Shown: positions 1,345 through 64,000 of the stretch, in pieces
Position numbering within the stretch: position 1 is the stretch's first letter
Layout: each line of letters begins with the position of its first letter
Assembly (NCBI GenBank): GCA_015178975.1
Contig: WHVD01000162.1
Span: 1 to 64,000, forward strand
Direction of reading: 5' to 3'
DNA from: Hysterangium stoloniferum
Taxonomy: Eukaryota > Basidiomycota > Agaricomycetes > Hysterangiales > Hysterangiaceae
DNA: 64,000 nt
Translations under genes and position numbers: made by a program
The notes under the pieces: model-generated
The model's database searches: none
What the model saw: the letters and a program-made list of their open reading frames with translations, nothing else
Told to the model about the DNA's origin: nothing

Positions 1345-1416
1345 GGTCAGGTGGTGTAATGGTTAACACCCCTGCTGTATATGCAGAAGCCCTGGGTTCA
1401 ATTCCCAGTCTGGCCA
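1345..1416 (+). other. tRNA-like Pol III module inside TRIM LTR (left)
   Basis: A 72-nt unit has a fully paired 7-bp acceptor stem (GGTCAGG with TCTGGCC), a 3-bp D stem and a perfect 5-bp T stem (CTGGG/CCCAG). It has an exact A box (TGGTGTAATGG) and B box (GGTTCAATTCC). The anticodon arm (loop TGTATAT) lacks U33 and has a mismatch, so it is unlikely to be a working tRNA. The D arm resembles tRNA-Glu/Gln types. Confidence 0.75.
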
Positions 1417-4228: not shown

Positions 4229-5248
4229 CTAATACTTTGTATGACCCCCTTTTGCCTTTAAAACTGCCTGTATCCTCCTAGGCATGCTTTCTATTAGCTT
4301 CTGACATGTCTCTGGTGGTATTTCAGTCCACTCCTTTGCCACCCTGTCCCATAATTTATGTACTCCTTTGGGTGATATGTCATATTGTTGGAGTTTGGCC
4401 TTGAGGTGTTGCCAGAGGTGTTCAATGGGATTTAGATCAGGGGATTGGGCAGGCCAATTCATGGGAATGATGTTATTGTCAGATAACCACTGGTCTGTCT
4501 TTTTTGAGGTATGTTTTGGATCATTGTCCTGTTGGAAGTACCACTTATCCTCAGCCATCTCCAAACTTTCAATGCTCTCCTCTACTCCCTCCTCCAAACT
4601 CTCATAATACTGCACTGTATCCATGTTCTTCTGCACCTCTATCAGCTTCCCTACCCCATTCCAGCCCATACACCCCCAAACCATCAAGTTATTCCCCCCT
4701 CCATGTTTGATAGTTGGTGTGGTGGTCCTGTCTGATACTGGTTCCCCTTGTTGCTTCCAAACATATACCTTCCCATCTGACCCAATCCTATTAATTTTTG
4801 TCTCATCAGTCCACAACACCCTCTTCCAGTCCTCCATAGTCCAATTTTCATGGTATTGGGCAAACTTTAGATGTTGCTGATGATGAGACCCCTTGAACAT
4901 AGGGACTTTCTTCTTTGTTGCTGACCTAAAGCCAGCTTCCTTCAACACATTCCTAACAGTCTGAGGAGTGACAGAGGTAGATATGATGGAATTTATAAAT
5001 TGGGTGGCTTGGACAGGATTGTCAAGCTTCCCAGAGCTGATTTAATGGATAATTGACTGTTTATCATAAGGGGAAAGCTTGGAAGAATGGCCACCAGGAT
5101 GATTTTCCTTATCCCCCTCTACCTTCCTACTGATTCTGCCAATAGTACCCTTTCCTAGACCAGTTTTAGCTTGAATTTGACACTGGGAATACCCCTCATT
5201 GAGAAGAAAAATAACAGAAGAATGCTTTTCTGCAGAGATGGATTTCAT
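4229..5248 (-). pseudogene. Tc1-type DDE transposase with a single internal stop
   Basis: One reading frame of about 340 codons from the ATG at 5248 to the stop at 4229. The N-terminus has paired helix-turn-helix regions (for example TGLGKGTIGRISRKV). The catalytic domain has VLWTDET, QQDNDPKHTS and SPDLNPIEHLW, giving the acid triad with 34 residues between the second D and the E (DD34E). Length and spacing are normal for Tc1 transposases. The only break in the frame is a TAA at 5042-5044 (codon 69), where the related Tc1-B has glutamine, consistent with a single C-to-T change. It would cut and paste the element at TA sites. Confidence 0.9.
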
Positions 5249-5890: not shown

Positions 5891-6579
5891 ACTACCCACT
5901 GCCCCAGGTTGATGATATTCTGTCAGACTGTGGGTGGGGTGTGATATTTGGTAAATTAGACATGACAAACTCCTTTTTCCAGACCAGGGTGCACCCCAAA
6001 GACATCCACCTGATAGCTATACACACCCTTTGGGCACTGTATGAGTGGACCATCAGGCCAATGGGAGGGTGCAATGCACCATCCACACACCAATGGCATA
6101 TGACAGATGCACTGTGTCACTTACTCGGGAAGATCTGCCATGTATATCTGGATGACATCATTATATGGTCAAAGACACTGGAAGAACATAAATTCAATGT
6201 ACAAGAAGTACTACAGGCACTGCATGCTGCCAAGTTGTATTGCAATCCCAACAAGTCTGTCCTTTTTGCTAGGGAGCTCTCCTTCCTTGGACACCACATC
6301 TCCTCAGAAGGCATCTGCCCAAATGCCCAGAAGACAGAACACATCACCAACTGGCCCCAGCCAACCACACCCATGAATGTCCAGGGTTTTCTGGGACTCC
6401 ATCTTGGCATTCCTCTCTGCCTTAGCAGAACACACCAGTGTCCTTACCCACCTAACTATGAAAGAATGTGACTGCCAATTCCCCATCTGGACTCCAGAAC
6501 ACCACCAGGCCTTTGATGCTATCAAACAATTGGTCACCAGTACAGAGTGTCTCACAGTAATTGATTATGATGACCCAAT
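5891..6579 (+). pseudogene. E0 reverse transcriptase
   Basis: Contains IFGKLDMTNSFFQTRVHP, the MGGCNAPSTHQWHMT region and the catalytic box HVYLDDIIIWS, then a connection region with FLGHHISSEG. This is the gypsy RT of chromoviruses found widely in Agaricomycetes. In-frame stops and a frame change near 6375 make it non-functional. Its 3' part is interrupted at 6579 by a solo LTR and resumes at 6988. Confidence 0.85.
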
Positions 6580-10269: not shown

Positions 10270-10827
10270 TGTCACAAATATACAAACTTAGATTTCGATA
10301 ATATTCAATTTAATATTTCTTTGACATTTCTTCGACATTTCTTTGACATTTCTTCGACATTTCTTTGACATTTCTTTGACATTTCTTTGACATTTCTTTG
10401 ACATTTCTTTGACATTTCTTCGACTTTCCGACTCAACTTCTGACTCAACTATTCTTCGACAATATCTTCGACAATCTCGAATATCTTTGACTTGTCTCAG
10501 GTTGATGTCATTGATGATTTCACTTTGATATCATATTATCATCATAGGTAAATGATATATAGTATATACATAAGGGCAATGATAGGAACGAAGGAAGTCA
10601 GTCAGAAAACCTGTACTATATTATATTTACTGTATTATATAATTGTCGAACTTTTTCCGAGCCTTTCTTTGACTTGTTTATTTGTGAGCCTCTGTGTCCT
10701 ATCTTTGCCTCATGCTTTATCAACAGGACGAATTAATACTTCATCAAATGAGGCATCTTTATTCGATATTGTTGAATATTCTTCAATTGTTTATTCGACT
10801 TTATTGAGTAAAATTTGATTTGTGACA
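10270..10827. mobile_element. Solo LTR inside copia gag
   Basis: 558 bp with perfect 10-bp inverted ends (TGTCACAAAT / ATTTGTGACA) and TSD ctcat (10265-10269, 10828-10832). Removing it and one TSD restores the gag frame. It contains an 11-bp tandem repeat. Confidence 0.92.
10321..10425 (+). repeat. 11-bp tandem repeat, about nine copies
   Basis: Unit TTTGACATTTC, alternating with TTCGACATTTC, inside the solo LTR. The TCGA variants look like CpG-containing ancestral forms. Confidence 0.9.
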
Positions 10828-11761
10828 CTCATCAAGGCTGTTTGGTACCAAAATGGTCTCTTCATCTTTGCAAGTTTTTAACCATTGATAGAGGGTGTCA
10901 TTTATGTCAGTGGTTGGAGGGGTGGTTGCATGGCTGAGATGCTGTGCAACATGTTTCACTGCAGCAATCCAAAGTTGCATACTTTGTGATTCCTCCTTTT
11001 TCATAGTAATGAAACAGCAACAAAGACTGGGATGAGATGCAAATCCACAGGTGACATGGACCTGATGCAAATTATTCCAAGATATGACTGGGTCACTTTC
11101 ATGAAGGTGAGGGATCTGCTCCAGTTCAACAGCCAGTGTGATTTCTGATTGTGCGAGTTGTTGCTTCTTGATAAATGAATGAACCAATTTTGAAGAAGGT
11201 GAGCCAGCCAGTTGAGTTTCTGAACCATCAATAATGTCCCAAACTTCTTTGTGAACAAGAAGTGCTTTCATGTAAACACACCATGTACTGTAATTCTCCT
11301 CCCCTAGTTTCTGAAAGCAATTCTCATTTCCCATTTTGGATAAGTTGATGACACTGATTTGGAGTAGTGGAAAAATGGAATGGAAAATGTAGTACAAGTG
11401 CTGTAGCTTCTAAGCCCTTTAATATCACCACCTACTTCTGCAAGTTCACTGTATCCCCCCAGAGCCCTTCCCATGTGAATACTGCAGCTTCTATGCCCTT
11501 CTATATGGCTGTCTAAAAGGATACAATGAGTAACTACTCAAAGGAATGAAAATGCAGAGCAACAAATCTAAATGATAAGTCTCCAGGGCCAATAACCTGT
11601 TAGAATTAAAGAGAGTGCAAAGTACGTCAAGACACAGTGAAAGCAAGCAAAGGACGTTAATATTAGTAAGGAACTGTACAGTACAACAAAATGTGTAAAA
11701 TATTACTGCAATCAATGCTTTTTGAAAGTTAAATTATAAACAAAAATCAACAAATTCAACA

Positions 11762-40238: not shown

Positions 40239-40431
40239 CTGAGGCTGGTCTAACATTCTTGGCACAACTGGAAGTGTGAAGGATAGGTCGCATAGGAGGT
40301 GCGACTAAAGACTCTAAGCCTTACCCTTTAGCTGCTTTATATTTCCATTATTTCTTTTATGTTTTATACTTTTATTTCCTTCTCTATCACTCATAAATAC
40401 AGGCCATATTCCCTTTTTATTAGTTTGAGAG
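40239..40431. other. Spacer between element X copy 2 and E1
   Basis: 193 bp with no recognised content, ending in the E1 TSD gagag. Confidence 0.5.
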
Positions 40432-41924
40432 TGTTAGGATACGTACAGGGTGGCTCTCTGGAGAAACCTGCAGAATATCCAGTAGGACTTGGCTTCAGCT
40501 TATAGGCTGCACCCTTGCTAGATCGTGTTGTCCAATTTCAGACAGGTGGATGGGAATCCCAGGGAGTCTGGGTGGGGGTCGTGGTCGAGAGGTCGTAGAT
40601 TGGAGGTCGTGGGTTGAGAGGTCGTGAGTGGTGAAAGAGATAGATGCGCCGGAGCCTGTGGGCTCCGACTAGTGTAAGCAGTGTAATTCAAGTAGTAGTT
40701 TAGAGCGGAAAATGTATTAGATTACTGGGGAGGATATCTGAAAACTATTAAGTATACCAAATTCTAATATACTCTAAAGGTCATTTAAACATCTGAGATG
40801 TGATTCAAACATAATTTGGTTTTTAAAACTTTTTGAAAGTTTTAAACTCTCTCATACATTACAAACTAAAGAATCTTTCCGGACATGAGTAGACAATAAA
40901 AAAAATTAGTAGTTTGAAACACTAATACTTTTAAAAAATAGATACCTTTAGATAGTCCATTCCATGCATATGTATATCATTGGCACCTCTAAATACATAT
41001 GTATTACTTCGGAATGGATCTGTTAATCTGAACAGATTTCTACTTGATTCAACATACCCAGAATATATAGGGGGTTTTACTTAATAAAGACAGCTGTGAT
41101 ATGAAAAATTTCCAATAATATTTTACATATTTTACATGGAAATAACTACATTTCAACTTTTAAAAAACAAAGTACTAATAAAAGTATTAGTAGGCATCTG
41201 TAAAAGGAAGGAAATTATATACAATGGAATTTGTTAAATAACTATGGGTTGTATAAGATGTAATATGGAGAACTATTTCTGATGGTTATTTTTTGATGAT
41301 ATAATTGTTTCAGAATAGATATCACTATTTAAAGATGGAGTTTTGTAAAAATAAGACTTTTATTAGTAAATATTTGAGATTATAGTAATTATAAATACCC
41401 TCCTGGGGGGAATCTAAGCCAATTTTCTGACTGGATTGTATGTACAACATCTGCCAGTTTAAATAGACCGTGGAGTGAATGTCATACCAAATCCAGTAAT
41501 AATGAAATGAAATGAGCAAAACATAAAACGGGAATAGTAAACACCAATTTGGTGTTAGGAACGGGACAGAATGGAGCAGAGTCCGAATAGTGACAAATCA
41601 TAAACCATAATGGGAAATGGAGTGGGAGTGGAGTCCGAATCGTGACAGGTCATTTGACTAAAACGGGAATGGGGCTTGGTTAGAGGGATGACAGGTTTTC
41701 TGAGCAGGGTCTGGTGACTGATGCACGGGACAAGGTCGGAAATAGACATAGACAGAGTCTGGTGGGTTTTCTGGTGACTGAAACACAATGTAACAAAGAC
41801 AAATGTAGACAAGTCTGACATACGGTGTCCGGTGGGAATTCTGGTGAACTGATAATGGGTGCGTATAGGGCACAGGTGCATATAGGTTAGTGCCCGGAGT
41901 CCAGCAGGATTTCCAGTCATAACA
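40432..41924 (-). repeat. E1 3' LTR, interrupted by a miniature DNA element
   Basis: About 815 bp when the 675-bp insertion at 40729-41403 and its 3-bp duplication are removed. It keeps a 52-bp segment between direct GAGTCCGAAT repeats that the 5' LTR has lost. Confidence 0.93.
40729..41403 (+). mobile_element. Miniature non-autonomous DNA element, copy 2
   Basis: 675 bp, noncoding, AT-rich. Ends GGAGGATATCT and (inverted) GGAGGGTATTT; duplicated tgg at 40726-40728 and 41404-41406. The 5' LTR of E1 gives the empty site (six G's in a row). It is the sister of 3140-3693. A 3-bp target duplication would fit a PIF/Harbinger-like source, but the target is not TWA, so the superfamily is open. Confidence 0.85.
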
Positions 41925-42074
41925 GTACCCTCCCTTTATGCTGAAGTCCCAAAGAGGCTCTAGACCTCGATAAGGTTCTTGTCGGCTACGCGCATGTGTC
42001 AAAAGTCATGTCGGTTACACGTATGTGTCAAGGAGTCATGTGATCTGGAAGGTAAGGTTCAAACGCGATGAGCC

Positions 42075-42083
42075 TATATATAA
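42075..42083 (+). promoter_or_regulatory. TATA box of the opposite-strand gene in E1
   Basis: TATATATAA 51-59 bp before the ATG at 42134, followed by a pyrimidine-rich stretch (TTCTTCTTC...) suitable for transcription start. Orientation is opposite to the E1 genome. Confidence 0.6.
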
Positions 42084-42133
42084 ATTTGAAAAAATAGAAA
42101 TTCTTCTTCTTTATTACCCCCATCTTCGACAAA

Positions 42134-43118
42134 ATGGGACCAAAGCCAACACCAAGACAGGCAATGCCAACTGCCAGGCCCTCCATGGGCACTCCATATC
42201 GGGCAACTTGGAGCATGGCCCAACTCTTGGCGTGGTGAGAAGAGCAGTGCCAACTTCACAAAGAAGCAGAGAAGGAGGCCAGAGAGGCCAAAGAGGCCTT
42301 AGACAGGGAGTACCAGGTGGCATTGGCCACGGAGGAAGAGGCTGAGAGGCAGAGGAAGAGAGATGAGGAGGAGGCTGTGCAGGTGGCCACGGAGAAAGTG
42401 CAGGTGGCTGCAGACAGAGCCGCGATTGTCGTGGGAAAGGTAAGTCCCAAACTCTGACTTATCATTTTTTTTTTTTTTTTTTTTTCACTGACTTGTCATT
42501 TTCAGTGCAAAGTGACAGAGGTCAAGTCGGAGTCTGAGGGGAGCCGGAGAGCCCCCAAAAGGTAAGCAATGGGTCCATGGGAAATACCGTGGAACTAACC
42601 ATATCAACAGAAGGCAAGGAAGGCGGCACCAGTCCGCCTACCCACACGGAATGACCCGCGGTGTTCCGGTTGTAATGACTGGAACACTGAATGCAATCGA
42701 AAGTCCGGCCGGGGTCTGGGCTGCTACCAATGTGCAATGTGCACACCTCAAGGCAAGGTGTTCACTTGTTCATGAACAGGCCGCGGGGTACGGGGCATGA
42801 GACATCAGCAGGTCAGACAGATTTTCTGGGTTGGACGAAGTCCTGGGAAGGATCGCCGAGGGCATCGAGGCCCAAAACGAATTGCTCTGGAAGAGCAACA
42901 AGGTCTACATAGTGGTGGTGAAGAAACTGTGCGGATTCTGTGAGGAGTTTTGGAGATTCCTGGCAGAGTATGGCGGCTATGTGTATGAAGAGCTGCAAGT
43001 TGGGAGTTCTGAGGATGCCAGGTCAGATGAGGATGGGGTTGCCATGGAGGTCGTGGAGCTCCCTGAGGAGATGGCTGCAGAAGTGGGGAAAAAACACAGT
43101 CCCATAAATGTAGACTGA
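42134..43118 (+). pseudogene. Opposite-strand spliced gene in E1: coiled coil, six-cysteine cluster, helical tail
   Basis: Exon 1 (42134-42439) begins MGPKPTPRQAMPTARPSMGT and continues with a long Glu/Ala/Arg-rich helix (EAEKEAREAKEALDREYQ). Introns 42440-42505 and 42562-42610 have GTAAGT/GTAAGC donors and TTTTCAG/CAACAG acceptors. Exon 3 encodes CSGCNDWNTEC then GLGCYQC, a C-x2-C-x6-C, C-x2-C-x6-C cluster, then LDEVLGRIAEGIEAQNELLW and an acidic tail ending SPINVD. Damage: TGA at codon 35 (42236), and a 7-bp duplication aatgtgc (42729-42742) that shifts the frame in the cluster. The cluster resembles zinc-cluster sequences common in Agaricomycete proteins. Introns can survive retrotransposition here because the genomic RNA is the other strand. 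Role unknown. Confidence 0.8.
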
Positions 43119-43339
43119 GAAAAGTAGTATAGAATAAAAGTTTAATAATTTTGAATATAAAAGTAAAGCGTGAAAAACATAAAAGTCAAAGTCCGCAGGA
43201 AAACCGCTTAGGGACTTAAAGAACATGTCAGAACCTGTAAAAGCAAAGAGAGACATAGGGCGACAGGGAAAAATGAAAATGTGTCCAAACATAACATGGG
43301 GTCCATGGAGTGCGGTCAGAGAGATGATAGTGGTCCGGG

Positions 43340-43515
43340 TTTGAGTGGGTAAGCTGTATGAAAGTCAGTAATGATTTCTGTGGCATTACCGAGTTCCATG
43401 GCCAAAATCCATGAGGTTTCTTCATCGGTGCCCTCGTAACCCGCCCACTTGACCAAGTAAAGCAGTTTACAAGTGCGTCAATGCTTGTCAATTTTTGAAT
43501 CTAAAATCTGTGAGA
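43340..43515 (-). pseudogene. E1 chromodomain
   Basis: EFEISQILDSKIDKH, a TGA, then CKLLYLVKWAGYEGTDEETS and WILAMELGNATEIITDFH. The pattern of aromatic residues and VKWxGY is that of chromodomains. The TGA lies at the same codon as in E3. Confidence 0.8.
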
Positions 43516-44650
43516 TTTCAAATTCGGGTTCTCCGTCAATAATGACCGGAGGAGGCGGAGATTGCACGTGATCTGGGATAGTGTTAGCAGTACAAGGTTC
43601 TAGCATAGAAACATGAAATACCAGGTGTACCATGTGCATGCCATCTGGAAGCCGTAGGGTCCAAGAAACTGAACCTACTTGTGCGATAATTTCAAATGGA
43701 CCTAAATATTTTTCAGCAAGTTTTTGATGGACGGGTAGTCTGGAAGAATTGAGCTTTGACAAAAACACGATCGCCAATTTTGAAGTTTGGTGGCGGAATC
43801 TGGTGTTTGTCCGCTGAATGTTGGTATTGCTCTTGGGTGGACATTATTGCAGTCCAGAGTTCCTCGTGGAGCTTGTGGAGGTCCGTGGTGAACTCTTGAG
43901 TGTGAGCAGAGGCAAGATTTCGTTCTGGATGTACTGTAATATTTGGATTATATTCTTTATTTGCAAAGAACGGGGAAACACCAGTAGTGGCCGAGGGTGC
44001 ATTGTTGTAAGCAAACTCTGCAAGTGGTAACAAGGATTTCCAATTGTCCTGTTGGTAGTTGCAATATACGCAGAGATATTGTTCCAATGTCTGGTTGATG
44101 CGTTCGGTTTGTCCGTCACCTTCTGGGTGATGTCTGGACGTGAAATGTAATGTCATGTCCAAGTATTTCCTGAGGGATCTAAAGAAGTGAGAGACGAACT
44201 CTGATCCTTGATCAGAAGTCATGTGGGACAGAACTTCGTGCTTGGAAAATACGTGGATAATGAAAAGTTCCGCTAACTGCACAGACGTAATTGTGTCATA
44301 AGTAGGGATGAATATACCTTGTTTTGAGAATCTGTCAACAACGACTAGAATGGCAGAAAAGCCTTCGGAATATGGTAAGTGTTCAATGAAATCCATAGAG
44401 ATAGAATTCCATGGATGTTCTGGTACCGGGAGTTGTTTCAAAAGGCTGTATGGCTTGTGTCACTGAGATTTCAAGTGGGGACAAGTAGTGCAAGATTTAC
44501 AATAGTGCTTAATGAATCCACGGAGTCCGGGCCAAGTGTATTCTCTTCTTATTAATGATAGAGTTTTGTTGTACCTGAAATGTCCTGAGAGTGGATGATC
44601 ATGTTTGTATTGAAGGATCCTGAGGTGGAGGCTGTCAGAGTCCGGTACAT
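43478..44650 (-). pseudogene. E1 integrase
   Basis: A zinc-binding region near 44470-44620 (H...H, CKSCTTC) precedes the core at 44441: SMDFIEHLPYSEGF, MTSDQGSEFVSHFF and HPEGDGQTERINQT, which supply D, D and E. The C-terminal GPFEIIAQVGSVSWTLRLPD motif (GPY/F module) is present at about 43700. A stop near 44465 and a frame change near 43713 break the frame. Confidence 0.88.
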
Positions 44651-45039
44651 AGATTCAATCGTCAAGTCTAATGAAACCATGCTGATCAAGAGACCACCGG
44701 GGTTGATCAGAGTCCACAGGATTGTCAAGGTGAGCTTTAGTAATCGGGTCTAGTAGAATTGCCAATAGAATATCTTGATGTAACTTCTCAATATCCATAA
44801 TGATAATTCCACGGACAATGGGATTGACAAGGAAAGTTTTGTGGACCGATGCGGTAAGTTTCTGATTCGTGAAAATAGGTTTCAGGTTGTGCAAATTTAC
44901 TGTGGCATAGTCGTTGCTCCCCTCTTTAGGATAAACATCCCATCATCTAGTTAAAGTGTCGGGTTTGCCACCGAGACAGCCGGGTCGAAAATGGATAATC
45001 ATGTTGAAGGCAGATAGATACTCAGACCAACGGGCCTGC

Positions 45040-46910
45040 GATGGGTCAAATGTTTTGTGGTAGAAAAGTATTCCAGGTTTTTGTGATCTGTTACAACATC
45101 AATAGGAGTTCCCAAGCCTTCCAAATAGTGTCACCACACTTTGAAAGCTGAAAGGATTTCCAGGAGTTCCTTATCATGAATGTCGTAGTTGAGCTCTGCT
45201 CCAGTGAAAGTCTGGGACAGAAAAGCCACGGGGTGGACTTCTCTGTCAGAGTCCTGGATAGACAGAATGGCTTCAAGTGCATAATCCGAGGCATCCGTTT
45301 CGACAATGAGTGAGAAGAAGTCCGGTTTCCAATGCAACAGAATAGGAGCTGAAGAAAAAGAATTCTTTAAAAGATTGAAAGCTTTTTGACGCTTATTGTT
45401 AAATTCCATGGAGTGTCCTTAGGTGTAAGATGGGTAAGGGGTACCGTGATGTCGGAATATCCACAGATAAACTGTCGGTAAAAATTGGCAAAGCCGAGGA
45501 AGGATTGTATATCTTTAACTTTTCAGGGTTCAGGCCAATCTTTGATGACTTGCACTTTAGTTTCGTCCATGTGGAGTCCATCGGGTCCCATAATGAAACC
45601 TAGGTATTCCATGGAGTCCATGTCAAAAATACATTTTTTACCATTTGTGAATAAACCATGTTGTCTGAGTCTCTGGAGAACTTCACGGACTTGTTTGTCA
45701 TGTTCCGCGGGATTCTCAGAGTAGATAAGAATGTCGTCCAAGTAAACAATGACACATACATCGAGCATGTTGGAGAAAATGTTGTTGATAAAATGCTGAA
45801 AAACAGATGGAGCATTGGTGAGTCCGAAGGGCATCACCAACCACTCGAAGGCCCCATAGCGGGTTCTAAAAGTGGTTTTCCATTCGTCACCCATGGCAAT
45901 CCAGACCAAATGATAGGTGTGTTTGAGATCTATTTTGGTGTAAATCCGGGCATTCTGCGGAGCATCGAGCAGATCAGATATGAGTGGGAGTGGATACTTA
46001 TCCTTTTTAGTGACAGCATTGAGTCCTCTAAAATCAACACATAGTCGAAGGGATCCATCCTTTTTTCTGACAAACAGAACAGGTGCTCCAAAAGGAGACT
46101 TTGAGGGTCTGATAAAACCTATGGACAAATGTTCATCCAGGAAATTGCGAATCGCGGAAAGTTCCGTGGACAAGAGCAGGTAAATATGTCCTAGGGGTGG
46201 CTGGGCTCCATCTTCAAGATCGATTTTTAAGTCGTATTCTCTGTGAGGCAGAAGCCGGTCAGCTTTTTGCTTGCTAAACACATCCGCAAAGTCATGATAT
46301 TTCTCTGGGACACCTTCTAGGTCAGCGGCTTGCTCAGATTCAGATACTGGTGTTGAAAAACGTCCAGTTGCTTCATCAATTTTTAAGTTGATAGTGAATG
46401 CCTGGGACCCGTCCATTTTTGAAGCCCTAATAAAAGCTGCAGCATTAATCAGAGAAATAAACAGAGGTGCTGTGGGTTCCAGGGAAGCCATGAGTGCCAT
46501 AGGGATCACAGGAGTCCTCGAGACTGCAGGTGCCAGGAAGGCCATGGGTGCCATGGAGGCCGAGACAGGTGCAGTTTCCTCGGCTGCCACAGGAGTCCGG
46601 AATGTTATACTGTTAGCTATCCAGTCAATCAACGGATTGTAGCAGGTAAGCCAGTTGTGTCCTAGGACCACCGAGCAACTTGAGTCTAACTGGGTCACAT
46701 AGAAAGTGACCAATTGAGATGGTCCACATGGGAAACAGATGGGTAAATCACAAGCTTGGGTAACAACCGAGTTACTTGTGCCATCAAAGAGGTGGAGGCT
46801 GATGGGATTTATTGAATAAGTTAACAAAGAATTTTTTGGCATGAATTTTGTATCTAAAAAACAATATGAGTCGAGCCTGAATCTATAAGAGCTGAAAAAA
46901 TGAATTTCGG
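45040..46910 (-). pseudogene. E1 protease, reverse transcriptase and RNase H
   Basis: ALIDSGST (aspartic protease active site, about 46890) precedes a one-base shift; the main frame then runs 46842-45523 with DLPICFPCGP and VLGHNWL. RT blocks: GFIRPSKSPFGAPVLFVRKK, DFRGLNAVTKKDKYPLP, AFEWLVMPFGLTNAPSVFQ and the catalytic VYLDDILIYS (about 45735). After a frame change near 45523, RNase H follows at 45409-45131 with VETDASDYALEAILS and ELNYDIHDKELLEI. Homologous throughout to E3. Confidence 0.9.
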
Positions 46911-47041
46911 AATCATATTAGACATAAGTTTAACGAAAAATGAATCAGAATGTGAAAGAGTGGATGCATTGAGATGGGTAAACTCTTGAATGTGCGGAGA
47001 GGCAACACAACCCCCAACCCACATGGAGTCCATGGGGTTGC

Positions 47042-48325
47042 TTAGTCTTTTTTCAAGTCGGAAGCCGGTTTGTCCTTCGATGGGGTTTCCGTGGAGGCCT
47101 TGGCTGTTCGACCCTTAGAAGAGTTTGCTTTTGCCAGCAGACATTCTGGGACTCGATGACCGGGTTTCCCACACAAGAGACAGAGGTTATTGTCCATACG
47201 ACGTTGTCTTTCCTGTGGGGTCAATTTGCCATCGGGTCCGAGTTTGCCTGAGAGGTCGGGTTTTCCGGCTTGCTTGCCAGACTGTTGACCCTTGTTATTG
47301 TCCTTGTTGTTATTGTTGTTGTTGTTGTTGTTAGAAGACTTTTTATCGTTCTTCTTGTCGGATTGTGTGGAGTTTTGGTTGCTGGTTGACGAATTGTTGT
47401 TGTTGTTTTTATTGGCCGTGGACTTGTTTATTTTGTCCACAGAGGTCTCACGGGCAACTTCTGTGCGACATTCCCAATAAGATGCATCCGCGTTTTGAGC
47501 TTTGAGGCACATACGGGACAGGGTTTTTGGCTTTCCATCTTCTCCTTTTGAGACTTCATCTTTAAGGTGGGATGGCAGACCGGCGTAGAATTGGTGGCAG
47601 AGAGCGGGATCGCCCCACTGACAATGAGCTGCAAGATTATTGAATTGGACAATATAGTCCGTGATGTGCTGGATCTCCTTCATATGAAGATTTGTGAGAC
47701 TATTCTCGGCTTCTCCTGTTGGGTCATATGGGCCGAAGTTGGTTTCAAGCTCCTCAACAAAAGCATCCCAATCTTCAAGCCAAAGCGGCTCTTCCTCGGA
47801 AATACCACTAAAAGCCGGTTTGAACCATTTCAACGTGGATCCCGACAAGTATGAAAGTGCATAGTTGACTTTATGGGAGTCTGTGGAGAATGCAGCAGAT
47901 TGATTGTGGAAATTGAAGTGACATTGCATGAGGAAAGTAGAGAGCTTGTTAGGGTTGGAACCCCTAAAGGGTTCTGGAGCATTGACTTTTGACTGTGGAG
48001 GTTCTTGTTCCTTTTTCTTTCATTCTTCGAGCAGGTGTGTCATAAATTTATCTATAGTGCCTGCTAAAAATTCAGACGTAGGATCCTCCAAGTGCAGTCG
48101 TTGACTAGATGGAGGATTTTTGACACCTTTGCCCTTCTCGGGGGCCACGGATTTGTCCTCGTGCTTGGATTCATCCTGGTTTTCCGGGACTTCTTCGATA
48201 CGGGCTTCTTCCATGGGTTCTGACTGGTTTGCAAGCATCTGGCTGGTATACAGAGTTAACGGGGAATGAAGAGTCGACAGTCCAGGTAATGATACCTGTG
48301 CATTCGCTTTCTTTCTTGGTGGCAT
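47042..48325 (-). pseudogene. E1 gag
   Basis: Begins MPPRKKANAQVSLPGLST at 48325. A TGA at about 48017 separates the N-terminal part from the capsid part, which has NKLSTFLMQCHFNFH, YALSYLSGSTLKWFKP and WDAFVEELETNFGPYD. A poly-asparagine tract and a zinc knuckle CLLCGKPGHRVPEC follow. E2 has Gly where the stop is. A gypsy gag of about 425 residues forming the particle shell. Confidence 0.9.
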
Positions 48326-48361
48326 ATTGAAAACAATCTGCGAGTTTCAGTCAGAAAATAC

Positions 48362-49097
48362 TGTTAGGATACATACAGGGTGGAAACCCGCGGAATATCC
48401 AGTAGGACTTGGCTTCAGCTTATAGGCTGCACCCTCGCTAGATCGTGTTGTCCAATTTCAGACAGGTGGATGGGAATCCCAGGGAGTCTGGGCGGGGGTC
48501 GTGGTCGAGAGGTAGTAGATCGGAGGTCATGGGTCGAGAGGTCGTGAGTGGTGAAAGAGATAGATGCACTGGAGCCTGTGGGCTCCGACTAGCGTAAGCA
48601 GTGTAATTCAAGTAGGAGTTTAGAGCGGAAAATGCATTAGATTACTGGGGGGAATCTAAGCCGATTTTCTGACTGGATTGTATGTACAACATCTGCCAGT
48701 TTAAATAGACCGTGGAGTGAATGTCATACCGAATCCAGTAATAATGAAACGAAATGAGCAAAACATAAAACAGGAATAGTAAACACCAATTTGGTGTTAG
48801 GAATGGGACGGAACAGAGCAGAGTCCGAATTGTGACAGGTCATTTGACTAAAACAGGAACGGGGCTCAGTTAGAGGGATGATGGGTTTTCTGAGCGGGGT
48901 CCGGTGACTGATGTGCGGGACGAGGTCGGAAATAGACATAGACGGAGTACAGTGGGTTTTCCGGTGACCAAAACACAACGTAACAAAGATGAATGTAGAT
49001 GAGTCTGACTTACGGAGTCCAGTGGGAATTCCAGTGAACTGATAATTTGTGCGTATAAGTTAGTGCCTGGAGTCCAGTGGGATTTCCAGTTGTAACA
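48362..49097 (-). repeat. E1 5' LTR
   Basis: 736 bp. On the minus strand a TATTTAAA box lies 25-30 bp before CCAGTCAGAAAAT, the likely RNA start and self-primer. The shared LTR module (GCAGCCTATAAGCTGAAGCC) is at about 48406-48440. Confidence 0.93.
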
Positions 49098-49674
49098 GAG
49101 AGTCCATGTATGCTCGTGGATGCTCTAGCCCACAAGAAGTATGCACATGTCACAGTAGTAGTCACACGAGAGAAACTTAGACACTTTTCAACCCCGACAA
49201 CCATCACCTACAAGATGCAAGTACTGGTTTGGGGTATTGTCTAACAAGACTCTTTCTCTTTCTCTCTCTCTCTCTCTCTCATCTCCAATTATCCATAACA
49301 ACTCTTCACACTGAAATAGTCGAAGTGCGTTATTACTAATTGGCTCAACTTCAAGTTATCACTTCGCACGGTAAGAACATCCAGCATTGCTCACTTCTCT
49401 AGATTATTCTTCCCTTCTCATGATAAACTCCTTCCCTTATCTACTCAGCTATCAGGCCAACTAGCTACACAGTCAGATCACACTGTAAGGTCAATCCACC
49501 CTTGTAATTATCTATCAATCACACCTTGAAGGTTGATTGTAATCTACAATTTTACTATCTAAAACTACTAGTCAATCATTCTTCACACTATTGTTAGTTG
49601 ATAACAATTGCATATTGAGTGGTAAACTACTCAACCCTTTACAGGAAGACATAGTTAATGAAAATCATGATAAA
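49098..49674. other. No recognised gene; TC microsatellite
   Basis: A TC/TCTT repeat at about 49249-49280. Otherwise unremarkable. Confidence 0.5.
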
Positions 49675-49802
49675 TGTTAAAAGTGTAGAAAATGAATGGC
49701 CAGACTAGGGATTGAACCCAGGGCTTCTGCATATATAGCAGGGGTATTAACCATTACACCACCTGACCCTGGGAAACACTGCTAGCATTACTCAATCTAA
49801 CA
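49675..49802 (-). mobile_element. Solo LTR of the tRNA-bearing TRIM
   Basis: 128 bp, TGTTAAAAG...TCTAACA, perfect TSD ataaa (49670-49674, 49803-49807). The tRNA-like unit is at 49697-49768 on the minus strand with A and B boxes intact. The TSD proves that the whole 128-bp unit, not just the tRNA part, was integrated as an LTR. Confidence 0.93.
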
Positions 49803-57797: not shown

Positions 57798-58599
57798 TGT
57801 TAAGGGTACATACATGGTGGGTTTCCAGAGAAACCCACGGGATATCCGGTAGGACTTGGCTTCAGCTTATAGGCTGTGCCATCGCGAGATCATGTTGTCC
57901 AATTTCAAAACAGGTGGATGGGAATTCCAGAGAGTCTGGGTGGAGTTTGTGGGTCAAGAGGTCGGGGAGTCGAGAGGTTGGGGAGTCGAGAGGTTGGGGA
58001 GTCGAGAGGTTGGGGAGTTGAGAGGTTGGGGAGTCGAGAGGTTGGGGAGCTGGGGATAAATAAGTCAGAGGTTGAGAGATAGATGCATTGGAGCCCATGG
58101 GCTCTGACTAGTGAGAGCAGTGTAATTCAAGGAGGAGTTTAGAGCAGAAAGTGTACTAGATTACTGGGGAAAATTTAAGCTGATTTTCTGACTGGATTGT
58201 ATGTACAACATCTGCCAGACTATATAGACTGTGGAATGAATAACATACCAAATCCAGTAATAATGAAATGAAACTAGCAAAACATAAAATGAGAATAGTA
58301 AACACCAAATTTGGTGTTAGGAACAGGATGGAACGGAGTGGAGTCCGAATTGTGACAAATCATAAACCATAATGGGAAATGGAGCGGGAGCAGAGTCCGA
58401 ATCATGACAGGTCATTTGACTAAAACGGGAACAGGGCTCAGTTAGAGGGATGATGGGTTTTCTGAGCAGGGTCCAGTGACTGACATGTGGGATGAGGTCA
58501 GACATAGACAGGGATGGAGTCCGGCAGGAATTCTGGTAAACTGACAATTGGCACGTATAAGTTAGTGCCCAGAGTCTGGTGGGAATTCCAGTTGTAACA
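57798..58599 (-). repeat. E2 5' LTR (family C)
   Basis: 802 bp, TGTTAAGGGTAC...GTTGTAACA. It precedes E2 gag on the minus strand and directly adjoins the E3 pol at 58600. It contains the expanded 16-bp repeat. Confidence 0.9.
57957..58050 (+). repeat. 16-bp tandem repeat, about six copies
   Basis: Unit GAGAGGTTGGGGAGTC. The matching region of the E1 LTRs has only two or three diverged GAGAGGTCGT units, so the array grew in E2. Confidence 0.9.
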
Positions 58600-58639: not shown

Positions 58640-60100
58640 CTCTCTCCTCAATGCTTTGGCATTTGTTAGGGTGAGTAAACTGGATGGATCACAGTGTTTT
58701 TCGATCAGCTTGAAAGTTGATGAAGCATCTGGACATTTTGTGACTCCAGAATTATCTGAGCTAAAAGCTGATCTGGAAGGAGTTCCTGAAAAATACATAC
58801 CATGATTTCGCAGACATTTTCAGAAGCAAAAAGCTGACCAGCTTGCACCACATAGGCCTTACGACTTAAAAATTGATATTGAGCCCGGTTCAAACCTCCA
58901 TTAGGACCTATTTACCTGTTATCCCAATCAGAACTTTCATCTATTTGGGAGTTCTTGGATGAACATCTGTTGATAGGTTTTATCCATCCCTCAAAGTCTC
59001 TGTATGGAGCACCTGTCCTTTTTGTCAAGAAAAAGGATGGTTTCCTTCGACTCTATGTCAATTTCAGAGGTTTAAATTCCATAACATGGAAAGATAAGTA
59101 TCCACTTCCACTTGTTACCGACTTACTTGATGCCCCATGGAAAGCTCATATTCACACCAAAATAGACCTTAAACATGCCTATTATTTGGTCCGAATTGCT
59201 GAGGGCGACGAATGGAAAACTGCTTTTCGAACTCGCTATGGATCCTTTGAATGGTTGGTTATGGCGTTCAACCTTACCAACACCCCTTCCACCTTTCAAT
59301 GTTTTGTTAATGATATATTTTCCAACATGCTTGACATATGTGTTATAGTCTATTTGGATGACATTTTGGTATTTTCCGAGGATCCCACTCTTCATGATGA
59401 GCAGGTCTGCGAAGTTTCTGGAGACTCCGAAAAAATGGTCTTTTTGCCAATGGTAAAAAATGCTATTTTGACATGGATTCTTTTCATTATCGGACCTGAT
59501 GGTCTCCATATGCACAACACTAAAGTTGAGGTTGTCCATGATTGGCCTGAACCACGGAAAGTCAAAGACATCCAGTCATTTTTAGGTTTCACAAACTTCT
59601 ACCGTCATTTTATTTGGAACTACTCAGATATTACAATACTGCTCACTCACCTTACCCATAAATCTCAACCATGGGTTTTTGATGACAAATGCCACTCTGC
59701 TTTCCAGACTTTAAAAAATGCTCTCACTTCCACTCCAATTCTTTCTCATTGGAAACCTGATGTTCCAACTATTGTGGAAACCAATGCTTCTGATTATGCA
59801 ATTGCTGTGATTCTTTCCATTCAAGATTATGATGGTGAAATTCATCCAGTTGCATTTCTTTCTCAGACACTTTCAGCCTCTGAACTCAACTATGACATTC
59901 ATGATAAGGAACTTTTAGCAATCTTTGAAGCTTTCAAAGATTGGTGGCACTACCTCGAAGGTTCTGCAACTCCCATTGACATCATTACCAATCACAAAAA
60001 TCTCATATATTTTTCTACCACTAAACTTTTGACCTGCCAGCAGGCCCACTGGTCCGAATTTCTCTCCACTTTCAACATGATTATCCATTTCTGACCCAGA
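58640..60100 (+). pseudogene. E3 reverse transcriptase and RNase H
   Basis: Linker with ADLEGVPEKYH and a frame change, then LIGFIHPSKSLYGAPVLFVK, LYVNFRGLNSITWKDKYPLP, YGSFEWLVMAFNLTNTPSTF and catalytic VYLDDILVFS (about 59355). RNase H has VETNASDYAIAVILS, with N where the family has a catalytic D, then ELNYDIHDKELLAIFEAFK. A short internal deletion is seen after VCEV near 59410. Confidence 0.88.
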
Positions 60101-60539: not shown

Positions 60540-61310
60540 TACTTGGCCCAACCTCCGAACCCAGTTCTGTAAGTCATGCACCACCTGCTTTATGCTCTAA
60601 ATCCCAGAGACATAAGCTGTATGGCCTTTTCAAGCAACTTCCAAACTGGAAAAACCCTGGAACTCAATTTCCATGGATTTTATTGAACAACTTCTGACTT
60701 CCGAAGGCTTTACATCCATCCTAGTTGTTGTGGATCAATTCTCGAAACAAGGAATTTTCATACCCACTCACAATACAATCACGTCCTTACAATTAGTGGA
60801 ACTTTTCATTATTCATGTATTTTCCAAACATGGTGTTCCATCTCACATAACTTCTGATTGAGGCTCCAAGTTCATTTCCCATTTCTTCCAGGCCCTCAGG
60901 AAAGCTCTTGACATGAAATTACACTTCACCTCGGGATATCATCCAGAAGGTGATGGACAAATGGAATGTGTAAACCAAACCCTGGAACAATATCTCTGCA
61001 TCTATTGCAACTACCAACAGGACAACTGGAAATCCCTTCTCCCACTCATAGAATCTGCCTACAATAACTCTCCAAACACAACTACCAGAATCTCTCCCTT
61101 TTTTGCCAATAAAGGCTATAATCCAAATCTCACAGTACATTCTGAACGAGATTTGGCATCTGCCTGTGCTCAAGAATTTATTACTGACCTCAACGAGTTA
61201 CATCAAGAACTTCAGAAAGCTATTTCTTCCACTCAGGAACATTATCAATGTTCTGCAGACAAAAACAGGATCCCACCTCCTAACTTTAAGATCAGGTTTT
61301 TGTAAAAGCT
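60540..61310 (+). pseudogene. E3 integrase
   Basis: Zinc region with CKSCTTC-like residues around 60560-60600, then MDFIEQLLTSEGFTSILVVV, HITSD followed by TGA at 60859-60861, HPEGDGQMECVNQTL (glutamate of GQTERxNQ retained) and YCNYQQDNWKSLLPLIESAY. Frame breaks at 61305. Confidence 0.85.
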
Positions 61311-61529
61311 CAATTCTTCCGAACTACCCGACCTTCTAAAAAACTTGCTGAGAAATTCTTAGGCCCTTTTGAAATTACAGCACAAGCCAGCTCACTTTCC
61401 TGGACTCTCTGACTTCCTGATAGTATGCAAGCAGTTCACCCCATTTTCCACATTTCCATGTTAGAACCTTGTGTTCCTAACAATATCCCAGAATGTACTC
61501 AACCTCTGCCCCCTCCAGTCATCATAGAT

Positions 61530-61748
61530 GGAGAACCTGAATTTGAAGTTTCCAAGATTTTGGATTCTAAAATCAACAATCACTGATGTACTTGTAAATT
61601 GCTCTATTTGGTCAAATGGGCAGACTACAAAGGTACCGATGAAGAAAATTCATGGATATTGGCCACAGAACTTGGACACGCTACAGAAATTGTAACCAAC
61701 TTCCACACCACGTATTCTAACAAACCTGGACCTTTATTGTCACTCTGA
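61530..61748 (+). pseudogene. E3 chromodomain
   Basis: EFEVSKILDSKINNH, TGA, then CKLLYLVKWADYKGTDEENS and WILATELGHATEIVTNFH. Same fold and same stop position as E1. Confidence 0.8.
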
Positions 61749-61999
61749 CTTTCTTTTCCATTCTCTTTCTGTTTATTTTCCAACACTTCTGATCTGACAC
61801 TCATTTTTGAAAAATCATGCAAGTCAAAAAAAATATTATTGCAACTGTCTTAAAGTTTCCGACACCCCAAATCCTCCTTCCACTTCAACTCCCATATCAT
61901 CCACAACCTCCACACTTTCCACCATATCCTGCACTTCATCATCTTCACTTTCTGGCCTTTTTCCCAACTCCCACCTTTTCCTCACACATTCCCCCAATG

Positions 62000-62541
62000 T
62001 GTTAAGTACTGTGTCAGGAACTTATTCCAGAACTATTGGAAAGTCACTGGAAAGTCGGGAACTATCAGATAGGGTCAGGATGTTGGCTTCAGCTATGTGC
62101 TGTGCCTCTACGCAAATGCTCGAAGTCCTTAATTTCAGAAGTGAGACTTACAATGGAAGATATGGATATTCAGAGTTCTGAAGAGTTCCGAATATCGAGC
62201 GTACAGAAAGACGGAAGAAGGAATAAGAAACTAAGTCGATATCAGATCTAAGGTAAAGTACAAATTCACGGAAACTAATATAAGTCTTCTCATTATTGTA
62301 CTACAAACTGAGACCATAATAAGATGGAAATGGAAGTATTCTTAAATGGGAATACAATAAGACATATTGGGAAGACAATATTCCAAAACGGGAATATAAT
62401 AAACAAATGAGTGAATACTTGTCAACGGACAAATTACCAAATGTGGAACAAGGGAAGAATGCGGCAGATATGGTAACTATGATGTTCCATAGTCGGAGAT
62501 CAGAAGTCGGATATTGAAACATCTGGGAATGGGTCGTAACA
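62000..62541 (-). mobile_element. Solo LTR, family D, inside E3
   Basis: 542 bp, TGTTAAGTACTG...GTCGTAACA, TSD caatg (61995-61999, 62542-62546). The left end resembles the family A end (TGTTAAGAACTG), and a degenerate shared module (TTGGCTTCAGCTATGTGCTG) lies at about 62083-62103. Confidence 0.94.
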
Positions 62542-62652
62542 CAATGGATCATTTGGCTGGTCCCTTGCTTTATCAGAAAACCTTTCGGAAACCGCAATAA
62601 CACCAATGCTGACCATTACCTTCTCCAGAAAATTGTTCTGCCTCTGGAAATT

Positions 62653-64000
62653 TCAGATCAATGACCAGAAACCTTTCTCCTGGATCTCATTATGGTGCTC
62701 CAAAGCATCCTGCATCTTCATCAGTTCCATCCCAATAAACACCAATGCATCCATGGTGTCTTTGAGAAGTCTGATGTTGTTACGACCGTGTCGCAACCCT
62801 ATCAGTCCCGAGGTTATCGCCACTTATCAACATTTCAAGTCACCATCTCGGAAACCATCAGCCCCGAAGCTGACGTATGTTTTCGTGAAGATCAAACTCC
62901 TTTTACACCCACGTCAAAATAACTCGTATTGTCTGGTCAAACTTTTGACACGTCCCTTTTATTATGTTGATCCGTTCAATCTTATGTTTCACATATGTCT
63001 ATCTATAATTGTAGTCCTTGAACTATTTCCTTTTATCGTAATCCCGCTCTCGGTTATCATCGGCCTCCGAACTAATCATAAACTTCCCGTTCCTAGTCAA
63101 GCTTATTGTTAATGCTGTTTTCCGCCCTTTTCCTCATTAGTGTTTTCTAGATGCCTGTTACTTGTATATGAACCCGCTGTAGTTGTAGTTACTAGGCAAT
63201 CAGAATATCAACTCAGAATACCCTCATACATCTGTAACAGTCTCATACTAAGAATCCCCCCATCCGCCTTTGCGTGCACTCACCCACTCCTGGCCCCGAC
63301 CCCTTGGCCCAACGCTCGACTTGTCCTTCGGTTCCGATCGGTATCTCGCCGAAAGGAGCTCTTTAGGATTAGTCTTCGCCTGCCCGAAATCTAAGGACAC
63401 CCTACAGATATTTGCGAGGGCGCAGCACATAAGCTGAAGCCAAGTCCTTCCGATCGGTCCCTGTCAGCCACCGACATTTAGTCAGTTTTCAGTTCTTAAC
63501 AGATGTTGGAATTACATGTATTCAGTACCTCAGTCTCCGTATTCTTGGCTATTCCCAGATTTTCCATGTCATCAGTTTTCTGAGCCTTCTCACCTTTTGG
63601 AGCCCTCTTCACGGCGAGGGTGCACAGAAGCTTGAGTACTGTGCAAGGATAGCAAGTTCTGCCCCATTTTACCTTCTGCTTCCAACAAGTCAAATTCCAA
63701 ATTGAGCACTGATAACACAGACTGTTGTGGATGATTTCCATCTGTTCTGGAGCTTTGACCTTTTGTTTCTGTTTCAGAAATTAGTCAACTTCCAACCTTT
63801 TACAGAATGAATCACTTACTTTAGGACTTGAAGGTTCAGCCTCTCCCTCCACTTCCACCTCCACAGCTTTTCACTGTGTTCAAATGTTATCAGAAGAAAC
63901 AGAACATTGTTGTTTTCACTTACTTTTCCCTCCCTTATCTCCTTTGCTTGCTTTTCCACCATCTCGGCCTCCCACTGCTTTTTCTCCACTTCATCCTTCA
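62653..64000 (-). pseudogene. Opposite-strand spliced gene in E3, partial
   Basis: Minus strand. Exon ending at 63924 (from beyond 64000) encodes KDEVEKKQWEAEMVEKQAKE; intron 63874-63923; exon 63820-63873 (AVEVEVEGEAEPSSPK); intron 63769-63819; exon from 63768 encodes QKVKAPEQME, then LCYQCSIWNLTC and TCYPCTVLKLLCTL, the same C-x2-C-x6-C / C-x2-C-x6-C arrangement as in E1. A solo LTR (62778-63501) splits this exon; it resumes at 62777 with LLKDTMDALVFIGMELMKMQ and stops at 62653. Both introns have GTAAGT donors and CAG acceptors, and occupy the same places as in E1 (after GK and PK). The first codon of the middle exon is TGA, so this copy too is probably dead. Confidence 0.8.
62778..63501 (+). 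mobile_element. Solo LTR, family A, copy 5
   Basis: 724 bp, TGTTACGACC...TTCTTAACA, perfect TSD gatgt (62773-62777, 63502-63506). Very similar to copy 4 (35079-35801). The shared LTR module is at about 63414-63452. Confidence 0.96.

Follow-up and report, generated by a model that had tools for sequence, protein, structure and literature searches.

An old chromovirus copy in the ectomycorrhizal fungus Hysterangium stoloniferum carries, antisense to gag-pol, a gene with its own TATA box, three exons, two introns and a cluster of six cysteine codons, and the same gene recurs in other copies of the element and in a second, more distant family. It is almost certainly a genuine, selected and spliced part of the element. 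The copy lies in a 64,000-nucleotide stretch of DNA (hereafter the window) and was compared with the 111-Mb assembly of the species.

The antisense gene of an old chromovirus copy

The copy, E1, is an old member of a family that we call A, and is a chromovirus (chromodomain Ty3/gypsy element) by its domains, its LTRs and its 5-bp target duplication. Its features, and those of a second copy in the window, are as follows.

40427-40431 and 49098-49102: 5-bp target duplication GAGAG, flanking the entire E1
40432..49097, minus: E1, whole chromovirus copy, with LTR pair, target duplication and gag, RT, RNase H, integrase and SH3 domains
40432..41924, minus: 3′ LTR of E1, by blastn against the 5′ LTR and against a young-copy LTR
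40731-41402: 672-bp AT-rich insert splitting the 3′ LTR
41928..41937, minus: polypurine tract, AAAGGGAGGG on the minus strand, adjoining the LTR end; same placement in a young copy
41980..42041, plus: 29-bp unit in 2.1 copies (Tandem Repeats Finder) upstream of the antisense gene; candidate regulatory site
42075..42084, plus: TATA box (TATATATAAA) of the antisense gene, some 50 nt before its ATG
42134..42439, plus: exon 1, ATG and charged Glu/Ala/Arg/Lys-rich stretch; premature stop in E1
42440..42505, plus: intron 1, GTAAGT...TTTCAG, 66 nt
42506..42561, plus: exon 2, of RKATEVES... type; 56 nt in E1, 57 nt in 53 of 57 copies
42562..42610, plus: intron 2, GTAAGC...CAACAG, 49 nt
42611..43118, plus: exon 3, with basic KARK-type start, six-cysteine cluster, long helix, acidic tail and stop
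42662..42761, plus: six cysteine codons of the cluster; E1 frame broken within
43319..43775, minus: pol end of E1, SH3_Tf2-1 and chromodomain region, by similarity to a young copy
45523..46842, minus: reverse transcriptase ORF (Pfam RVT_1, E 2.9e-35)
47042..47929, minus: gag ORF (Pfam Retrotrans_gag, E 2.2e-11)
48362..49097, minus: 5′ LTR of E1, at its high-coordinate end
61296..64000, pol end plus, antisense gene minus: broken family-B copy at the right edge of the window, by blastn matches to the B gene, an LTR part and the A pol end

According to Pfam, the gag, RT, RNase H, integrase and SH3 domains of E1 all sit in broken ORFs. No chromodomain was called by Pfam in E1's own broken pol ORFs; at the corresponding place, Chromo matches were obtained in a young family A copy (E 1.4e-07) and in a family B copy (E 6.7e-07), and over 459 bp the pol end of E1 matches a young copy bearing both Pfam domains at 94% identity.

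The antisense gene occupies positions 42134-43118 of the plus strand, with an ATG, three exons and two GT-AG introns. On one side of it is the SH3/chromodomain end of the minus-strand pol, on the other the complement of the polypurine tract, which adjoins the 3′ LTR. An earlier note on this DNA had described an opposite-strand gene with a TATA box, two such introns, a six-cysteine cluster and an acidic tail, in a damaged copy. All of these elements are present, the splice sites and cysteines being kept across family A copies, and the damage is real: a premature stop in exon 1 and a broken frame in exons 2 and 3. In intact copies the cluster has exactly the spacing of the Zn(II)2Cys6 type, C-x2-C-x6-C-x9-C-x2-C-x6-C, which is hidden in E1 by the frame break.

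The window holds other mobile-element sequence. The LTR halves around the 672-bp insert of E1 overlap by 6 bp, which resembles a target duplication, and the antisense gene of the family-B copy at 61296-64000 is interrupted by two inserts, one of which holds family-B LTR sequence (62263-62541). Additional family-A LTR sequence is found outside E1 at 57819-58537, beside a 16-bp tandem repeat (57953-58049), and remains at 4229-4948, 5941-6471, 10801-11397 and 58955-60094 include a Tc1-type DDE transposase, an RT fragment, a copia-type gag and an RT/RNase H ORF. ARAGORN made three tRNA-Ile(TAT) calls in the window (1345-1416, 1628-1698 and 49697-49768), which may be false or repeat-borne.

Occurrence, introns and selection in two families

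The earlier note had suggested looking for the gene in other copies of the chromovirus, and it is indeed present in two families, with at least 150 exon-3 matches each. For family A, 150 of 1264 candidates were scored in the protein search, exon 3 being stop-free in 104/150 among the matches listed, and a DNA search with the gene gave at least 42 matches (40 of 810 candidates scored). At 30 loci fetched by the gene, the leader from polypurine tract to ATG adjoins it in all 30 and the pol end in 29; conversely, at 30 loci fetched by the pol 3′ end (E1 included), exon 3 was found in 29 and exon 1 in 28. A TATA-like box is present in 51/55 family A copies. Distances between copies in the gene and in pol are correlated (r 0.43 over 1431 pairs, with 0/999 permutations as high). 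The claim that the gene belongs to the chromovirus is thus upheld by the duplication that flanks the whole element and by the presence of the gene in the same place at 29/30 pol-end loci and in the diverged family B.

Copies with an open 1304-aa pol frame have exon 3 correctly placed in 15 of 17 cases among the matches listed; one of the remaining two runs off its contig and the other, L087, has a deletion in the gene. In L087 (G000:C2:324900-327000) exon 1 is kept, exon 2 and the greater part of exon 3 are gone and the frame is open to the family stop; its deletion junction has a mismatch-free match at one place only in the genome. Aberrant splicing was considered as the origin of this deletion and rejected: no AG acceptor stands at the junction, and a matching GCGGGAAAACAGGAGG stretch occurs at three other loci, which makes a repeat-mediated deletion likelier. 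The loss of exon 2 and most of exon 3 from a copy whose pol is open counts against the explanation that we favour below.

Among 7 informative chromovirus 3′ ends fetched by the SH3 domain, the gene was found in 3 (two of family A, one of family B). No tblastn match to the gene was obtained in L061, L062, L066 and L067, four regions that belong to another chromovirus group; the L063 stretch is the wrong side of pol, and L079 is an exon-3 fragment. L064 and P0001, the latter an annotated H. stoloniferum protein, are variants of the antisense gene without the first three cysteines of the cluster.

The introns were followed in an alignment of 59 family A copies, from which L034 and L037, lacking the gene wholly or for the most part, were removed, leaving 57. 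Intron 1 begins with GT in 56 of these (GC in one) and intron 2 likewise in 56 (TT in one), and both end with AG in all 57. Intron 1 lengths are spread over all residues modulo 3 (22/20/15), while the length of exon 1 is frame-keeping in 48/57 copies. Retention of intron 2 would disrupt the frame in 55/55 copies, and retention of intron 1 in 38/55. The two introns are present in 57/57 A copies and in 12/12 B copies examined, which fits the earlier proposal that they survive through their orientation: being antisense to the genomic RNA, they would not be spliced out of it.

Family B (L068) is a more distant chromovirus that carries a diverged form of the gene in the same arrangement, with at least 150 exon-3 matches (150 of 953 scored), stop-free in 112/150 among those listed. 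In 12 whole-gene copies the order is exon 1, first intron (51-55 nt), exon 2 (54 nt, or 48 in one of the 12), second intron (47-51 nt) and exon 3; GT-AG borders are found at both introns in 12/12, and the leaders read TATAAAA in 11/11 examined. The families share the three exons, the intron positions (phase 0, after ..GK and ..PK/QK), the TATA box, the charged exon 1, the six cysteines and the acidic tail. The cysteines align in the pattern C-x2-C-x6-C-x9/10-C-x2-C-x6-C, single copies having lost one. Identity between A and B is 28% in exon 1, 61% in exon 2 and 31% in exon 3, against 82% (125/153 identical) for the pol end, whose synonymous sites are near saturation (dS 1.9). By these figures, the antisense protein diverges much faster than pol. 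The A and B LTRs align only over a short terminal stretch, the B LTR being incomplete. Because the same gene with the same introns is found in both diverged families, it predates the A-B split, and both introns have survived since.

Comparison of the copies shows that the gene is under purifying selection as a protein. We calculated dN/dS by the Nei-Gojobori method as the median over pairs, with a second value in which CpG-type changes were masked; the medians are given without P values since copy pairs are not independent. The gene gave 0.25 (masked 0.19) in 30 older A copies, 0.33 (masked 0.22) in 23 young A copies and 0.25 (masked 0.23) in 12 B copies. Shifted reading frames of exon 3 gave 0.99 and 1.13 in family A (masked 1.56 and 1.57) and 1.19 and 1.11 in family B (masked 1.13 and 1.61). 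The dN/dS comparison that the earlier note had called for therefore comes out in favour of selection, at about 0.25 (0.33 in young A copies) vs. 1.0-1.6 in shifted frames. Non-CpG differences per site in the 30 older A copies were 0.056, 0.047 and 0.152 at codon positions 1, 2 and 3, and these codon-position and shifted-frame tests rule out chance open frames. The pol-end control gave 0.36 (masked 0.27) in old copies, with L020 left out, and 0.17 (masked 0.04) in young ones, so that young copies constrain the gene less than pol (0.33 vs. 0.17), a second point against our favoured explanation. The young set comprises 23 of the 29 copies L032-L060; L032, L034, L036, L037, L048 and L058 were left out.

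The full spliced frame, from ATG through two GT-AG introns to the family stop, is open in 17/59 A copies and 3/12 B copies, and the concern that no copy might have such a frame did not materialize. In the 57 aligned A copies, 57/72 premature stops are TGA codons at sites that are CGA in other copies, a mark of CpG decay after insertion. CpG counts are 29 in the E1 gene, 20-56 in the coding exons of L001-L030 and up to 87 in young copies, and this strong loss in old vs. young copies suggests that H. stoloniferum has CpG methylation or a mutation process directed at CpG. Two of the three LTR pairs fetched show no difference, over 821 and 822 bp; the third pair (C551), partly covered, had 6 mismatches and one gap in 491 columns. 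The target duplications of the two copies with identical LTRs are CAGCT and GCTGA. Two identical LTR pairs mean that family A moved recently, and intact copies of the gene occur in recently inserted elements.

Given these data, there is next to no room for a later, independent insertion into E1, which the earlier note had allowed for, or for frames open by chance: the broken state of the E1 gene itself speaks for them, but the 5-bp duplication surrounds the entire E1, other copies carry the gene in the same place and the frame test is clear.

The predicted protein and its cysteine cluster

The predicted protein has about 290-350 residues, with a charged, helical N-terminal half, a basic stretch, the six-cysteine cluster, a long helix and an acidic tail. 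The six cysteines are kept in 57, 57, 56, 57, 56 and 57 of the 57 A copies, respectively. By eye, the basic stretch at the exon 2/3 join reads KKAR in A and KKPK in some B copies; stretches of this type can act as nuclear signals.

Zn(II)2Cys6 clusters follow the consensus C-x2-C-x6-C-x5..12-C-x2-C-x6..8-C. The cluster has the cysteine spacing of PF00172 and, aligned with PPR1, the spacing seen in PPR1 and GAL4. Pfam Zn_clus matches remained below the gathering cut-off, at 8.8-10.4 bits vs. 21 in four members, and weak matches were obtained in 16/27 members at E up to 10 (best E 0.051). The basic residues between cysteines 2 and 3 are not conserved, CNDRNTEC in A and CSIRNMTC in B comparing with CRLKKIKC, CRLKKLKC and CRKKKWKC in GAL4, PPR1 and LAC9. 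In a profile comparison with these three proteins, free column shuffles scored as high in 1/150 cases and shuffles with the cysteines held fixed in 16 and 18/150, from which we conclude that the resemblance rests on cysteine spacing only. With Zn_clus below threshold and profile support confined to the cysteines, we do not file the protein as a member of the Zn2Cys6 family, although it may work like one.

Structure prediction, which the earlier note had suggested for the cysteine cluster, gave models of low confidence. AlphaFold models of exon 3 have mean pLDDT values of 53.5 and 48.3 for the two families, with the cluster poorly modelled and the tail below 50; a helix is predicted behind the cluster in both, at residues 84-160 in B (pLDDT 86-90 in the first half) and 67-118 in A (about 64-75). 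With a cluster under the Pfam cut-off and a low-confidence fold, the earlier reading of the product as a DNA- or RNA-binding regulator stays a proposal.

Other searches gave little. Pfam scans of two full spliced proteins returned LprI at 0.0017 for one, below the cut-off and in the charged stretch only, and no match for the second; neither TRP28 (PF04195) nor bZIP was among the Pfam matches of the antisense proteins. A PDB sequence search yielded nothing significant (GATA E 0.39, PPR1 E 5.3). An nr-type protein search returned only H. stoloniferum proteins with 8000 candidates scored in one search, so that distant or unannotated relatives may exist, and the annotated members among the protein-search matches are three fragments, P0001-P0003. 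Pattern scans of viral_contigs confirmed 0 of 54 and 0 of 93 pattern matches.

Possible roles and known relatives

We propose, with a confidence that falls just short of even, that the antisense protein works in the nucleus as a dimer that binds DNA and regulates the element through the element's own LTR or antisense promoter. The gene, antisense to gag-pol, with a putative TATA promoter just inside the LTR and a pair of short spliceosomal introns, would be the chromovirus's third gene; its product would enter the nucleus, dimerise and bind DNA through the six-cysteine cluster, and binding at the element's own LTR or antisense promoter would tune the expression of the element. The action might extend to related copies, giving a self-recognising regulator functionally like retroviral HBZ. 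The PPR1/GAL4-like spacing, the weak Zn_clus matches, the basic stretches and the joint fast divergence of protein and LTR are consistent with this proposal.

CGG/CCG triplets are in excess in the A LTRs (56 vs. 40.5 and 55 vs. 39.1 expected; 0/1000 shuffles each) and in four B LTR parts (15-21 vs. 7-11 expected; 0/1000 shuffles each), with a weaker excess in pol and gene controls (30 vs. 21.8, 20/1000 shuffles; 65 vs. 52.5, 12/1000). CGG-N0-12-CCG pairs are as enriched in the pol and gene controls as in the A LTR. Both control results count against a regulator. A stretch CGGCT...TATGTGTC, related to the 29-bp unit of family A, has a single occurrence in family B leaders. We take the upstream repeat, this stretch and the triplet excess as hints only that the LTR or promoter may be regulated by the protein. 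More tentatively still, a family-specific, fast-evolving, Zn2Cys6-like protein matched to its own LTR might serve auto-regulation or immunity to further copies, the introns then marking expression from the DNA copy only, never packaged as mRNA-derived sequence.

The protein could instead be an accessory factor rather than a transcriptional regulator, helping Gag or the cDNA (nuclear import, chaperone, integration targeting) or countering host silencing, and we give this a substantial, if minority, share of the probability. The evidence for a selected protein fits equally well, cysteine clusters also serve in RNA binding and protein contacts, and the fast divergence (31% vs. 82% for pol) would suit an arms race; the contrast between CpG-rich young and CpG-depleted old copies implies a host CpG-directed silencing or mutation that would be worth countering. 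Against it, the spacing is like that of DNA-binding Zn2Cys6 clusters and unlike CCHC knuckles, and no positive pointer to any one role was found.

It is improbable that the antisense transcript is what matters, rather than the protein, by forming dsRNA with the genomic RNA and thereby limiting copy number. The gene is wholly antisense to the genomic RNA, and a review raises this possibility for plant elements (PMC7264820), but an RNA function needs neither codon-level constraint, seen here in two families against values of about 1.0-1.6 in shifted frames, nor the frame-keeping indels of exon 1, which are absent in intron 1, nor near-invariant cysteines. An RNA role alongside that of the protein may exist. 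Still less likely is a captured host gene, a passenger that brings the element no benefit. Its introns show that the gene must at one time have been taken up as DNA or by way of an antisense event, and no relative outside H. stoloniferum was found among the protein-search matches; a passenger is nevertheless hard to reconcile with purifying selection in two families whose pol-end synonymous sites are near saturation, and with the presence of the gene in nearly all copies examined.

Genes in this position have precedents. Boty-like elements bear a chromodomain along with "brtn-106" (PMC4227169), two further papers refer to brtn (PMC8365987, PMC5987419), and a review names Sclerotinia sclerotiorum besides Botrytis cinerea as hosts of the brtn of Boty-like chromoviruses. 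As described there, brtn belongs to a fungal chromodomain element and, like the H. stoloniferum gene, sits in antisense orientation after pol and before the 3′ LTR; its host is an ascomycete, one size is reported ("brtn-106"), and the likeness, drawn from description only, is one of position and orientation. BRTN was not named among the matches of the nr-type searches with the antisense protein. Zhao et al. (2011) reportedly deal with the brtn of Boty, and Gomez-Orte et al. (2013) are also cited in this literature.

As described in reviews, the plant aORF-3R genes (Grande gene23, RIRE2, Retand TRP28, PvRetro13) have the same place and orientation as here and are kept in most copies; the Retand lineage is non-chromovirus, and neither introns nor a Zn2Cys6-like cluster are mentioned in those descriptions. 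The H. stoloniferum protein does not match the TRP28 domain of Retand. Reviews report that the Grande product is nuclear and transcribed from its own promoter (PMC7264820, PMC11963269). The HBZ and APH genes of deltaretroviruses are antisense and spliced, as here; HBZ and some APH proteins are nuclear, and HBZ, APH-3 and APH-4 are reported to repress LTR transcription (PMC10186651). Their promoter lies inside the 3′ LTR, whereas the putative one of the H. stoloniferum gene is just inside the element, and HBZ is a bZIP protein, whereas the fungal one has a six-cysteine cluster, with no homology seen. GAL4 and PPR1 share with it the C-x2-C-x6-C...C-x2-C-x6-C pattern, an adjacent helix and an acidic region, but it differs from them in its score below the Pfam cut-off, its non-conserved basic loop, its mid-protein cluster and its retrotransposon origin.

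A survey of fungal gypsy elements mentions, in a figure legend that gives no strand, an additional ORF to which it assigns no function (PMC2864245). Literature searches, mostly outside subscription papers, found no spliced, two-intron, six-cysteine antisense gene in fungal chromoviruses. The novelty claimed by the earlier note is therefore partial: an antisense gene in this position was known from a fungal chromovirus (Boty brtn) and from plants, while no two-intron, six-cysteine version was found in print.

For decades, antisense accessory genes have been reported in LTR retrotransposons. Here, two diverged families, hundreds of copies, intact recent ones, a clear selection signal and a candidate domain make their function directly testable. 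That only three annotated fragments turned up among the matches means that such genes have likely been overlooked elsewhere. The case also shows a rule, that introns are able to persist inside a retrotransposon when they are antisense to its genomic RNA. Overall, many retrotransposon copies in H. stoloniferum carry a selected, spliced, antisense cysteine-cluster gene, whose product may be a regulator of the element itself.
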